DNA of 64,000 nucleotides from Gemmatimonadaceae bacterium (lineage in GTDB: Bacteria; Gemmatimonadota; Gemmatimonadetes; Gemmatimonadales; Gemmatimonadaceae), in contig DATNEW010000019.1 of assembly GCA_035606695.1 (NCBI GenBank), forward strand, positions 1 through 64,000. The letters are read 5' to 3'. Below the pieces are notes generated by a model. It saw nothing but the letters and a program-made list of their open reading frames with translations, did not search any database and was not told the DNA's origin. Both the position numbers and the translations under genes were made by a program. Below, piece by piece: positions 16,345 to 21,166 of the stretch (the stretch's first letter is position 1; the number at the start of each line of letters is the position of its first letter).

Positions 16345-17087
16345 CCAACGCGCCGAGCACACTGAGCAACGCAACGACGACGACTCCGATTGTCGCGCTC
16401 GACGTCTCGACGGCGGAAGACGCCATCGAGCTCGTCGACTACCTCGGCGAGCGGTGCCGCTTTTACAAGGTTGGCAACGAGCTGTTCACGGCGGCGGGGC
16501 CCGCCATTCTCCGCGAGCTGCGCGCGCGCGGCTGCGACGTGTTTCTGGACCTCAAGTTTCACGATATTCCAAACACGGTCGCCGGCGGCGTTCGCAACGC
16601 CGCGCACATGGGTGCTCGGCTCGTGACGGTGCATGGGGTTGGCGGCGTGACGATGTTGCGAGCGGCGGCGGAGGCCGCGCGAGACGCGTCTGGCGATGCG
16701 TGCGGCGTACTCGCCGTGACCGTGTTGACGTCGCTCACAGCGGGCGACGTGGCGCGGGCCTGGGGTAGGGACGCGGCCGTGCTGGACGTGAGCGACGAGG
16801 TGCTGCGGCTGGCGGACTTGGCCAAGGAAGCCGGGGTGCACGGCGTCGTCTGTAGCGGCCGAGAGGCGTCGCGAGTGCGCGAGCGGCATGGCGTCGCCCT
16901 GGCTGTGCTGGTACCGGGCGTTCGTCCGGCCGGTGGAGCGGTGCAGGATCAGGCGCGTGTGGTCACACCGGCCGAGGCGGGCGCGGCGGGCGCGCGGTAC
17001 GTCGTGGTTGGCCGGATGGTGACGGCCGCGAGCGACCGGCGGCGGGCGATGGACGAGGTGGTGCGAGAGCTTGCTTCGGGTCGGTAG
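16332..17087 (+). CDS. pyrF: Orotidine 5'-phosphate decarboxylase
   Basis: A 251-residue enzyme making UMP. Visible landmarks are IVALDVSTAEDA near 19, the catalytic block DLKFHDIPNT with Lys75, TVHGVGG, and the phosphate loop VVGRMV near the end. It starts inside the pyrD coding end, so the two are coupled. The TAG stop is followed at once by the 11-bp tandem array. Confidence 0.95.
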   Translation: MAALTNAPSTLSNATTTTPIVALDVSTAEDAIELVDYLGERCRFYKVGNELFTAAGPAILRELRARGCDVFLDLKFHDIPNTVAGGVRNAAHMGARLVTVHGVGGVTMLRAAAEAARDASGDACGVLAVTVLTSLTAGDVARAWGRDAAVLDVSDEVLRLADLAKEAGVHGVVCSGREASRVRERHGVALAVLVPGVRPAGGAVQDQARVVTPAEAGAAGARYVVVGRMVTAASDRRRAMDEVVRELASGR

Positions 17088-17164
17088 ACGGCGGGCAGAC
17101 GGCGGGCAGACGGCGGGTAGACGGCGGGTAGACGGCGGGCAGACGGCGGGTAGACGCTGTGCAG
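17088..17164. repeat. 11-bp tandem array (ACGGCGGGYAG)
   Basis: Six units differing only as acggcgggcag or acggcgggtag, then a degenerate seventh (acgctgtgcag). The array starts at the base after the pyrF stop and ends ten bases before the target duplication of the transposon. Confidence 0.9.
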
Positions 17165-17173
17165 ACGCTCGGA

Positions 17174-17182
17174 TGCTTAACC
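17174..17182. repeat. Target site duplication, left copy
   Basis: tgcttaacc, repeated exactly at 20426-20434 on the other side of the transposon. Nine bases is the size made by IS1-type transposases. Confidence 0.92.
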
Positions 17183-17231
17183 GGCACTGGTACAGTTTGA
17201 ATGACCAGGCCGGGTGGAGTAGTTTCGCCCG

Positions 17232-17603
17232 ATGCAACAGCCCACTCTTGTCTGCCCGTCGAGCGCGTCAGGTCTCCTGACCGTCTTCGGTCTCGCGCTA
17301 AGCATCGTGTCGCTCGTGCTCGCGTTCTATGCCATCTGGCAAGCGAACGATGCGCGCAAGGAAGCGAACAAGGTGAACGCGGCGACGCTAGATTTGTTAC
17401 TGGATGTGCGAACGGACGCGAAATCCGTTGCAACGATTCTCGCGCCCGAATTGAAGGAATACGGCGCGGTGAGTCGTCAGGCGTTGATGCAGCGGACGTT
17501 CAGACCGACCGAGACGCTGACGGCGACCGCCGATGACTCAGGAACTAAGGCGACTCCTGATGTGGCGCCGCGTGATACGGGAGCGTCAAATGCGAGTAGT
17601 TGA
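17232..17603 (+). CDS. Transposon passenger: single-pass membrane protein
   Basis: A 123-residue protein of unknown function. A single transmembrane helix (about residues 14-40, LLTVFGLALSIVSLVLAFYAIW) is followed by a short charged coiled-coil stretch (QANDARKEANKVNAATLDLLLDV split around residue 50) and a low-complexity Thr/Ala tail. This build, TM helix plus cytoplasmic coiled coil, is common in small membrane partners of defence or sensing systems, but I recognise no specific family. It overlaps the next gene by 14 bases. Confidence 0.65.
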   Translation: MQQPTLVCPSSASGLLTVFGLALSIVSLVLAFYAIWQANDARKEANKVNAATLDLLLDVRTDAKSVATILAPELKEYGAVSRQALMQRTFRPTETLTATADDSGTKATPDVAPRDTGASNASS

Positions 17604-17958
17604 GAGTGTCTTCGGTGCGGGCAAGCAGCTGATCGACGGCATGGAGTTCATCAGATGTCGATTTGAAGGCACGACTCTCGTCTACTCAGCAACCGCGCCG
17701 ACGCTGCTGAATGAGTGTCAGTTTGTGGGCGTCCAGTTCGAGTTTAGTGGCCCCGCGCTTCTTGCCTTTGATTTCCTACGAGCTCTCGGGCATGGTGCGG
17801 GGCCGGACGGTGCGCGGATTGTTCAAAGTGTTATAAAACACATCCAATCGCCCCCGCCGCCCCCGCCGCCATCGCTTTCGCGAATTGCGGAAACGACTGC
17901 TACGTCGAGCGTGACAATCGCTCCGACTATTCCGAGCGTCGGCTCACGACGCAAGTAA
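17590..17958 (+). CDS. Transposon passenger: short pentapeptide-like protein
   Basis: A 122-residue protein from ATG 17590; ATG 17533 is possible but overlaps its neighbour heavily. The core MEFIRCRFEGTTLVYSA and LLNECQFVGVQFEFSG has Cys-x-Phe repeats at alternate positions, as in small right-handed beta-solenoids of the pentapeptide type. A run of seven Pro near residue 92 starts a Ser/Thr-rich tail. Its 3' end overlaps the convergent transposase by 15 bases. Coupling to the membrane protein upstream suggests the two act together. Confidence 0.6.
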   Translation: MRVVESVFGAGKQLIDGMEFIRCRFEGTTLVYSATAPTLLNECQFVGVQFEFSGPALLAFDFLRALGHGAGPDGARIVQSVIKHIQSPPPPPPPSLSRIAETTATSSVTIAPTIPSVGSRRK

Positions 17959-18798
17959 GGCGACCACTTCGCCGAGATTCCAAACATGATCGCTCACGCC
18001 CGCTGCCATCGCGGGCGTTTGCTTTATCCCGCCGTTGTTCTTCGTCAGCGTCATATGCGGACGACAGAAATTGTAGTACATGAACCACAGCGACATCGCA
18101 TGCACGTGGTTCTCGATCTTCTTGCTGTGGCCGTTCGTGAGGCGCGTCAGCCGGCGGATGTTGGTCCGCATGCGCGTGTTGTGCGACTCGGCGTAACTGG
18201 TCGAGATCAGCGCCTCGTCCGGCTGGCCCATGATCGGCTTTTTTTCTAGCGACGTGAGGGCGACGGGCGCGTACTTGCCGCTGCCGTGCGTATCGCCGGT
18301 TGCGCCGTACAATTTGACCAGCATCGCGTAGTCCACGCCGTTCCAGCCGAACGCATTCTCCACCGCCGTCAGATAGGCGTTGTGGCCGTCCGTCGAGAGC
18401 TGCACGCGGTTCGCGAGACGCGACGCCAGCTCCTCCATGAACAAGTGCGCAGCGTCGGCATCGCGAGTGCCGACGTGCCAGCACGGAATGAGCTTCGTGT
18501 CGGCGCAGATCCCCGTCCACGTCCAACAATCGCCGCGCCCGCGTCCCTTCTCATCGAGCGGGACATTCTTCTCGCGCGCGCCGACGAATGACCAAATCTC
18601 GTCCGCTTCGATGCGCTTGCATGGCAGGTTCACCAGCACGCGCTGCTGGTAAGCGAGAACCGCCGTTCCGACCTCAGCGAGCAGCTTCAAGATCGTGACC
18701 TTGCTCGCACCCGTCTGCCGTGCCGTCGCATTGATCGACGCGCCCTCACAGAGGGCGTAGAGGATTTGCACGCGCTTTTCGGTCGACAGGCGGTTCAT
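17944..18798 (-). CDS. IS1-type transposase
   Basis: A 284-residue DDE transposase in a single uninterrupted frame. The N-terminal helix-turn-helix (MNRLSTEKRVQILYALCEG, then INATARQTGASKVTILKLL) is followed by the catalytic core with Asp66 in EADEIWSF, Asp137 in STDGHNAY and Glu204 in YAESHN. The C-terminal TPAMAAGVSDHVW is also usual in the IS1 group lacking a programmed frameshift. All catalytic residues are present, so it may be active. It is transcribed away from the PIN module. Confidence 0.95.
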   Translation of the reverse strand: MNRLSTEKRVQILYALCEGASINATARQTGASKVTILKLLAEVGTAVLAYQQRVLVNLPCKRIEADEIWSFVGAREKNVPLDEKGRGRGDCWTWTGICADTKLIPCWHVGTRDADAAHLFMEELASRLANRVQLSTDGHNAYLTAVENAFGWNGVDYAMLVKLYGATGDTHGSGKYAPVALTSLEKKPIMGQPDEALISTSYAESHNTRMRTNIRRLTRLTNGHSKKIENHVHAMSLWFMYYNFCRPHMTLTKNNGGIKQTPAMAAGVSDHVWNLGEVVALLAS

Positions 18799-18888
18799 GG
18801 TTCGGTTCGTGAATTGAAACTGAACTAATATGCTTGCTTAACTTTACGTTGTCAAGTACTTCTTTCTCTGGTTTGTTCTCCTCTGAGC
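18799..18888. promoter_or_regulatory. AT-rich divergent region between transposase and putative antitoxin
   Basis: About 90 bases, much poorer in G+C than the rest of the window, separate the two divergent genes. It must hold both promoters. TTGTCA (18849-18854) is a possible -35 for the + strand, but no convincing -10 at proper spacing can be named. Confidence 0.35.
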
Positions 18889-19653
18889 ATGTATACTGTG
18901 GCCATGGCGAAGATCGTTCTTGACCTGGATCGCAGGGATGTCTCGGCGCCCGATTTCGCCGAAGGCTTTCTTGCGCAAATGCGTCTCGTCGAGCAGGTCA
19001 TGGTCGAGATGGGCATCGCAGCCAATCAAGTTCGGTGGGTCATTGAGGATCTTCGCGCCGGGAGTGCCTACGCTGCGGCGACAGCTCACATACAAGGTGA
19101 GCATGTCGCGATGGCAGACATCGAAGCTGCAATCCGAATCGCCGGTCAGGGCACGAAGGCTCTGGCATCCTCGAATAAGCGACCCGCTCATTTTTCGGAT
19201 GCCGCGCTCAAGACAAGCCGAACGCTGACGCGAATTCTGTCGGAATATGACAGCGGTAAGGCAGTGGCACGATTCGGCCAGATTGTAGTGAAGCCCAGCG
19301 AAAAGGTCGCCGAAAACGTCGCCACTATCATTCGCGGCGATCTCCGCAGCATAGCCAGTATTGACGGTACGCTGGTCGGTGTGAACGACTACGGAAGGAT
19401 TGAAATCTCCGTCGTGGACCGTTTACGCGGTCGGCGCATTCGCTGTGAGATCCCTAACGACTTGGTCGATAAGGCGCTCAGTGCGTTCAAGAAGCGCGTC
19501 GTCGTTCGAGGGCTGATGTGGTCCCGTCAGGACGGGACCGCAATCCGGATCGACGTTCGGAGCCTCGACGTAATGCCACCTGACGATCAACTTCCGACGC
19601 ACAGCCAAGTCCGTGGCATCCTCAGCGGCTACAGGATCGCCAATGGCGAATAA
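18889..19653 (+). CDS. Transposon passenger: putative antitoxin partner of PIN toxin
   Basis: A 254-residue protein of no characterised function. Residues 1-95 are helical and Ala-rich. The C-terminal part (about 130-245) is a beta-rich domain with the pattern IASIDGTLVGVND, RRIRCEIPNDL, KKRVVVRGLMWSR and IDVRSLDVMPP, resembling small OB- or SH3-like domains. I recall similar C-terminal domains in proteins encoded next to PIN genes, and this gene overlaps the PIN gene by 11 bases. ATG 18904 (MAKIV) is an equally good start. The antitoxin role is inference. Confidence 0.65.
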   Translation: MYTVAMAKIVLDLDRRDVSAPDFAEGFLAQMRLVEQVMVEMGIAANQVRWVIEDLRAGSAYAAATAHIQGEHVAMADIEAAIRIAGQGTKALASSNKRPAHFSDAALKTSRTLTRILSEYDSGKAVARFGQIVVKPSEKVAENVATIIRGDLRSIASIDGTLVGVNDYGRIEISVVDRLRGRRIRCEIPNDLVDKALSAFKKRVVVRGLMWSRQDGTAIRIDVRSLDVMPPDDQLPTHSQVRGILSGYRIANGE

Positions 19654-20158
19654 GATTCGTCGCTATTGGGATTCCTGCTGCTGTTTCGGCTACCTGTTGA
19701 ACCAGGCTAACCGTGCCGATAAGTGCGAGCCCATTTTGCTCGACGCGGAAGTCGGGAATTGCGAGATAGTCATATCGGCCTGGACCATCGCGGAAGTGCT
19801 CCACAAGAAAGGCGACAAGCGGCCCTTTCCGAAGGAATCGCGCGAGCTGCTACGAAAGTTCTTCAATCGAAGCTGTTTCATCGTCGCCGAAGTGGATCGG
19901 GTCATCGCCGAAGCCGCTCAAGACGTGTTCTGGGAACATGACATACTGCCGAAAGACGCCGTACATGTCGCCACCGCGTTGGTGGCGAACGCCAATTATC
20001 TAGAGACCTTTGATGGCGGCTTGCTTGCGAAGAGCAAGAAGCTCGGGGGCGACCCAGTACTCGTAATTCAAGAGCCGGGTGCTGAGCGTCTAAAAGCGGA
20101 AGCGAAGAAGGCCGATAAGAAGGGGCAAATAGAGCTACCGGGAACGCTTTCGAGCTGA
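19643..20158 (+). CDS. Transposon passenger: PIN-domain nuclease (VapC-like)
   Basis: A 171-residue PIN-domain protein, probably an RNase toxin. The four acidic residues expected are in place: Asp10 in YWDSCCC, Glu51 in WTIAEVLH, Asp105 in LPKDAVHVATAL and Asp124 in TFDGGL. The Cys run at 12-14 is unusual. A Lys-rich tail (about 150-165) is unlike compact VapC and may bind RNA. ATG 19643 lies inside the end of the preceding gene, the usual toxin-antitoxin coupling. The 3' end overlaps the convergent small basic gene. Confidence 0.8.
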   Translation: MANKIRRYWDSCCCFGYLLNQANRADKCEPILLDAEVGNCEIVISAWTIAEVLHKKGDKRPFPKESRELLRKFFNRSCFIVAEVDRVIAEAAQDVFWEHDILPKDAVHVATALVANANYLETFDGGLLAKSKKLGGDPVLVIQEPGAERLKAEAKKADKKGQIELPGTLSS

Positions 20159-20359
20159 CGCTTTCGCGCCCTTCTTCGCGATGCTGACCCGCTCCTTTCG
20201 GCTGAGCGTCTTTGCGCGAGCAATGCCGCCTTTTGAGGCCCGAACCTGGGTCGGTCCCGGCTCAGCGTCTTCCGGCTTCTCGGCTTCTTTCGTCGCGATT
20301 CCACCGACGAGCCTGGCGAGCTGCATCATGTCGGCCGGTCGCTTCGGGCGCTTTGGCAT
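20135..20359 (-). CDS. Transposon passenger: small basic protein
   Basis: A 74-residue, strongly basic protein. The N terminus PKRPADMMQLARLVGGIAT and the C-terminal SKGGIARAKTLSRKERVSIAKKG follow a pattern seen in many small bacterial proteins of unknown role (a short helix, an acidic or Pro linker, then a GG-x-ARA-x-LS-xx-R motif). It is the last passenger gene and starts 47 bases from the right terminal repeat. Its mRNA would be complementary to the 3' end of the PIN mRNA over 24 bases. Confidence 0.65.
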   Translation of the reverse strand: MPKRPKRPADMMQLARLVGGIATKEAEKPEDAEPGPTQVRASKGGIARAKTLSRKERVSIAKKGAKASARKRSR

Positions 20360-20425
20360 GGATGCAAAATACCGAACCGAGGTTTCATGACCAAGAACTG
20401 GCTACTTTCAAACTGTACCAGTGCC

Positions 20426-20434
20426 TGCTTAACC
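20426..20434. repeat. Target site duplication, right copy
   Basis: tgcttaacc, identical to 17174-17182. Confidence 0.92.
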
Positions 20435-21058: not shown

Positions 21059-21060
21059 CA

Positions 21061-21110
21061 AGCAGTAACAAGCAGTAACAAGCAGTAACAAGCAGTAACA
21101 AGCGGTACTT
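21061..21110. repeat. 10-bp tandem array (AGCAGTAACA x4)
   Basis: Four exact copies of agcagtaaca and a degenerate fifth (agcggtactt) lie between rpsM and rpsK, starting three bases after the rpsM stop. Confidence 0.92.
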
Positions 21111-21112
21111 AG

Positions 21113-21147
21113 CAGATCCTCGTCTCGCTTCGCTCGCGAGGATGACA
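21113..21147. repeat. Dispersed palindromic repeat, short copy
   Basis: atcctcg...cgaggat forms the stem around tctcgcttcgctcg; the copy ends gatgacag like other family members. It lies between rpsM and rpsK. Confidence 0.7.
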
Positions 21148-21166
21148 GACACACAACTAACGAATC

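Follow-up and report, generated by a model that had tools for sequence, protein, structure and literature searches.

Families of insertion sequences with passenger genes exist, the IS1595-type tIS being one example, and ISfinder includes IS1 subgroups that are larger or have a single ORF (such as ISMhu11), as well as a few insertion sequences with passengers. Canonical IS1 is compact (about 0.7–1.2 kb): its insA and insB genes are joined by a frameshift, its short terminal inverted repeats start with GG, and it makes target duplications of 8–9 bp. Tn3-family transposons carry several toxin-antitoxin types, PIN included, which are exchanged between elements (PMC7157771). The locus described here lies between pyrF and rpmJ in a Gemmatimonadaceae bacterium, within a stretch of 64,000 nucleotides that was analysed as a whole (the window, to which all positions refer unless stated otherwise), and it resembles each of these systems in part. 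Very probably it is an autonomous IS1-related cargo transposon, in which a two-gene core is accompanied by exchangeable cargo, often of toxin-antitoxin or anti-phage type, that would maintain the element. Its features are as follows.

17174–17182, no strand: target-site duplication, left copy, TGCTTAACC
17183–17201, plus strand: inverted repeat, pyrF-side end, downstream of the transposase in element orientation (19/19 match)
17232–17603, plus strand: passenger ORF, 123-aa protein, apparently with one membrane segment as read from the sequence
17533–17958, plus strand: passenger ORF, 141-aa protein, start uncertain
17944–18798, minus strand: single-ORF IS1-related DDE transposase, 284 aa (NCBIfam transpos_IS1 match; D66, D137, E204)
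18889–19653, plus strand: passenger ORF, 254-aa protein whose gene immediately precedes and overlaps that of the PIN protein, candidate partner
19643–20158, plus strand: passenger, PIN-domain protein, 171 aa (Pfam PF01850, 44.7 bits, cut-off 23.6)
20135–20359, minus strand: core helper gene, 74-aa basic, helical "KGG" protein (homologues in 93 of 110 elements; alignment; structure model)
20407–20425, minus strand: inverted repeat, rpmJ-side end (helper-gene end), exact reverse complement of the left end
20426–20434, no strand: target-site duplication, right copy, exact 9 bp, TGCTTAACC

The outer anatomy is exactly as a first-pass annotation of this DNA had described it, with perfect 19-bp inverted ends, an exact 9-bp flanking duplication and a length of 3,243 bp. 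The left end reads GGCACTGGTACAGTTTGAA and recurs as its reverse complement at the right end without a mismatch, and the span between the two duplications, 17183–20425, accounts for the full length. In the 5.9-Mb host genome the 19-bp end occurs twice at up to three mismatches, both times at this element (a reversed-pattern control gave no occurrences), and a search of the same genome for a second copy of the whole element or of its ends found none. The G+C content is 58%, against 64–67% in the 10-kb flanks. Consistently, all five congeneric genomes inspected (G114–G118) have an uninterrupted site in which pyrF is followed by a short variable spacer and then by the same sequence before rpmJ; the flank to the right of the element is conserved in them. 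The ancestral junction region in these relatives reads ..AACC|CGTCCCCTTG..; in three of the five, the last four bases of the duplication (AACC) directly precede this junction. The empty orthologous site that the annotation had proposed to look for is thus present, and the cargo is absent from the pyrF–rpmJ interval in relatives, where its presence next to no transposase would have spoken against a mobile unit. Given a single copy in the genome and an uninterrupted site in all five congeners, the element is an insertion.

Conceivably, the locus might instead be a degraded or composite structure, consisting of two solo ends and independently inserted genes, with a transposase that no longer acts on both ends. 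The single copy, together with a G+C content that ranges from 55% to 64% among the individual genes, would fit such a history; the intact transposase, the 19/19 ends and an outermost duplication that is exact over 9 bp would not, nor would the 85 related elements that repeat this architecture, each with an exact duplication (see below), and we give this reading hardly any credence. Two further repeats lie in the neighbourhood. Directly after the pyrF stop codon and just before the left duplication, positions 17083–17165 hold about eight direct repeats of 11 bp (GACGGCGGGCA/T), an array absent from the aligned congeneric sites. On the rpmJ side, positions 21059–21148 hold a 10-bp tandem repeat (aagcagtaac) followed by a palindromic sequence of about 37 bp, gatcctcgtctcgcttcgctcgcgaggatgaca, which is found in at least 15 places in the host genome and is thus a REP-like dispersed repeat.

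How closely is the element related to IS1? The transposase is intact, as first annotated: its ORF is open, an N-terminal helix-turn-helix is present, and D66, D137 and E204 are invariant in a 23-row alignment of transposases, as are R215-R216, T218-N222 and S225-K226. IS1 is its best family, despite scores below both curated cut-offs (53.2 bits against a cut-off of 100 for NF033558, NCBIfam transpos_IS1; 19.2 bits against 24.1 for PF03400), and NCBI labels its plasmid relatives "IS1 family transposase"; a solved-structure search with the transposase profile returned nothing useful. With canonical IS1 the element shares the 8–9 bp duplications, the short terminal inverted repeats with GG-starting ends, the DDE residues and a C-terminal block, E...NL..R....R..R.T..FSK, which we take to be like that of IS1. 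It differs in encoding a single 284-aa ORF instead of two frameshift-joined genes, in its length (3,243 bp, with a family median of 3,055 bp and a minimum of 1,261 bp) and in containing an additional helper gene and cargo. Of the original description as an IS1-type cargo element, the ends, the duplication, the transposase and the empty sites therefore stand, whereas membership of canonical IS1 does not: with a transposase below the curated cut-offs, a single ORF and a length about threefold too great, "IS1-related" is the safer term, and judged by its sequence the element is an IS1-related transposon outside canonical IS1.

Relatives were sought by transposase search in the host family, in named genomes, on plasmids and in viral contigs, and elements were called by paired ends flanked by a duplication, with near-identical copies removed. 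The ends of the 110 distinct elements found in this way match (consensus GGTAGTGGGTCAGTTTGAA), as expected from the earlier proposal that the same ends would be found with cargo at other loci. Exact duplications flank 85 of them, 82 being of 8 bp and three of 9 bp, and the elements measure between 1.26 and 7.5 kb. Transposase relatives in named genomes are 39–67% identical, and named hosts belong to Actinomycetota, Acidobacteriota, Pseudomonadota, Bacteroidota, Gemmatimonadota, Myxococcota, Verrucomicrobiota and Planctomycetota, so that the family spans eight phyla or more and also occurs on plasmids and in viral contigs. At least 235 loci in viral contigs (IMG/VR) encode transposase relatives, of which 80 were fetched (L214–L293); the 321-kb genome of an isolated phage, Brevundimonas phage vB_BpoS-Gurke, also encodes a relative (ON529850.1:174794-175666). 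The 7.5-kb element contains other transposases as well, one element (L037) has a stop within its transposase, and a near-identical second-site copy of the Mesorhizobium element was sought in plasmids and not found. Among elements whose transposase is full-length, the smallest measures 1,323 bp and holds this gene together with a helper recognisable in its N-terminal half only; it marks the minimal core of helper and transposase. Shorter ends around the transposase alone, which would have undermined the initial interpretation, are not the pattern seen, since in almost all relatives the ends enclose the whole element and the 1.3-kb element keeps both core genes.

The first-pass annotation had counted five genes unrelated to transposition. 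Four of these are passengers, and the fifth, the 74-aa ORF at 20135–20359, is a core gene. Its recurrence at the same end was first revealed by an ORF comparison across the first 30 elements, and a profile search now finds homologues in 93 of the 110. All 93 lie upstream of the transposase and are co-oriented with it, 57 of them no more than 120 nt from the element end. Independent profile searches of 295 genomes of the class, one for the helper and one for the transposase, place most full-length helper matches at the same loci as the long transposase matches. Since it is conserved with the transposase in this way, we regard it as a second core gene; the reading as ordinary cargo was rejected by its fixed place and strand relative to the transposase. 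The protein is basic, with the consensus ..PxDxNQLAxxIVxxATGE..GGLKGGKARAxxLTxExRSEIAKKAAxARW, and is modelled with moderate confidence as three helices. It matched no family in Pfam, and its model matched no fold in the PDB; a solved-structure search with its profile gave nothing useful, a plasmid search with the protein found nothing, and on one plasmid it is annotated as "histone H1". We infer a role in transposition as a DNA-binding helper or as a regulator; from its conservation, charge, position and predicted fold, DNA binding near the ends or an association with the transposase is most likely.

Might the helper nevertheless be cargo that simply happens to be frequent in these elements, for example an antitoxin or a nucleoid protein? 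Such a view could draw on the lack of a known family or fold and on the P63C-domain cargo proteins of three elements (L071, L160 and L161), whose N-termini carry a motif like its KGG..ARA. It is difficult to reconcile with a gene that is always upstream and co-oriented, that adjoins the transposase in most full-length copies of the 295 genomes, and that is kept at least partly in a 1.3-kb element without room for cargo; we consider it unlikely, if the least so of the alternatives discussed here, and treat the helper as part of the core. The standard gene is lacking in 17 of the 110 elements. L255 and L290, which have no usual helper, encode, downstream of the transposase, a small protein of another kind (1149–1451 and 1550–1942 of the respective elements, both minus); it is antisense to the transposase, has a Cys-containing start and bears a motif, KRPRD..LA, that resembles the helper N-terminus. 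The host genome itself holds a second, partial helper-motif match within a 126-aa frame (G000:C38:27489-27641), around which no convincing element ends were found.

What does the core carry? In the pyrF–rpmJ copy, the clearest passenger is the 171-aa PIN-domain protein, which scores well above the Pfam cut-off and is probably a VapC-like ribonuclease toxin; a solved-structure search with this protein gave nothing useful. The 254-aa protein encoded by the overlapping gene has a weak PADLOC match (16.6 bits) and no homologue in the other 178 of 179 genomes of the family, and neither it nor the 141-aa protein was matched in plasmid searches or viral scans. It is probably the partner or antitoxin of the PIN protein, although the antitoxin role is a guess because no homologue of it was found. 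On sequence grounds, a PIN toxin with a 254-aa partner appears to be the best reading of the overlapping pair, and the PIN match places it with VapBC-like type II modules, the toxin being a predicted one. The 123-aa protein had no match above cut-off, and the 141-aa protein no family match, in Pfam, NCBIfam and PADLOC.

Across the family, individual tests of more than 40 cargo proteins gave matches that included a HigB-type toxin, PemK, Fic, SoFic, SIR2, a GmrSD-like protein, an SDH protease, DUF3800, a methylase fused to Mrr, the Panacea antitoxin (more than once), ImmA/IrrE (M78), P63C, HEC-06 and HEC-09, as well as PD-Lambda-2_B and RmrA, both repeatedly. Among the 148 cargo ORFs of the 110 elements, raw counts are 19 each for ImmA/IrrE (M78) and HTH_3, eight for SDH protease and seven for P63C; by similarity, a PD-Lambda-2_B-like protein is common to 17 elements and an RmrA-like protein to eight (again raw counts). 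Many cargo ORFs have no family match; in GC-rich elements, some of the long ones may not be genuine genes. Five elements (L236, L244, L270, L280 and L286) have in common a cargo protein of about 300–330 aa downstream of the transposase; Pfam proteasome-type domains occur in four cargo ORFs, possibly those of this same protein. When seven cargo classes are placed on the transposase tree, at least 25 changes are needed (least possible 6, shuffled mean 34), with RmrA and SDH protease scattered in a random-like manner. Cargo is thus often exchanged or acquired.

An ordinary compact IS1-like element could also have captured unrelated genes between its ends by chance, in which case the cargo would be irrelevant to its spread. 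Cargo ORFs without a recognisable family and the existence of one near-minimal 1.3-kb element would be expected under such a scenario. However, nearly all of the 110 elements exceed the core (median 3.06 kb), PD-Lambda-2_B-like, RmrA-like, SDH protease and P63C cargo recurs in unrelated elements, and the 254-aa protein is absent from the other genomes of the family, so that we think chance capture quite improbable. We envision, rather, a cargo transposon whose core consists of two co-directional genes between inverted ends of about 19 bp, one for a small basic helical protein near one end and one for a single-ORF DDE transposase. As its anatomy indicates, the transposase would act on the ends and insert the whole unit with an 8–9 bp duplication. 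The cargo lies in the interval that separates these genes as well as to their sides; it is exchangeable and in many cases consists of a toxin-antitoxin or anti-phage module. Through addiction, protection of the host against phage, or both, it would most likely ensure that the element persists in the population. The stabilising or protective role first suggested for the passengers is therefore plausible.

As in the IS1595-type tIS, the ends (here with their duplication) enclose genes unrelated to transposition, which qualifies the element as a cargo-carrying IS, dispensability of those genes being predicted; its transposase belongs to a different family, and we know of no helper gene that it shares with the IS1595-type tIS. 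With the Tn3-family toxin-antitoxin transposons it shares toxin-antitoxin-type cargo that lies inside a transposon and is swapped among elements, whereas the large unrelated transposase, the resolvase and the res site with its adjoining toxin-antitoxin pair (PMC7157771) have no counterpart in it, neither a Tn3 transposase nor a resolvase being found among its six ORFs. No description of such IS1-related cargo elements was found in the open-access literature searched, and novelty is on that basis provisional. A broader proposal, which we put forward tentatively and at somewhat less than even likelihood, is that these elements form a cross-phylum class of small transposons dedicated to shuttling defence and addiction modules, in which a previously unrecognised helper and an IS1-type transposase move units of 2–4 kb whose cargo is swapped modularly on chromosomes, plasmids and phages.

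The finding raises the question of what a small helper protein contributes to an IS1-type transposase. It also offers handles for mining new defence systems, namely the end sequences (GGTAGTGGGTCAGTTTGAA) and the helper as a marker gene, because unknown genes between such ends are good defence candidates. A vehicle of this compactness could account for the spread of small toxin-antitoxin and anti-phage systems among distantly related bacteria.
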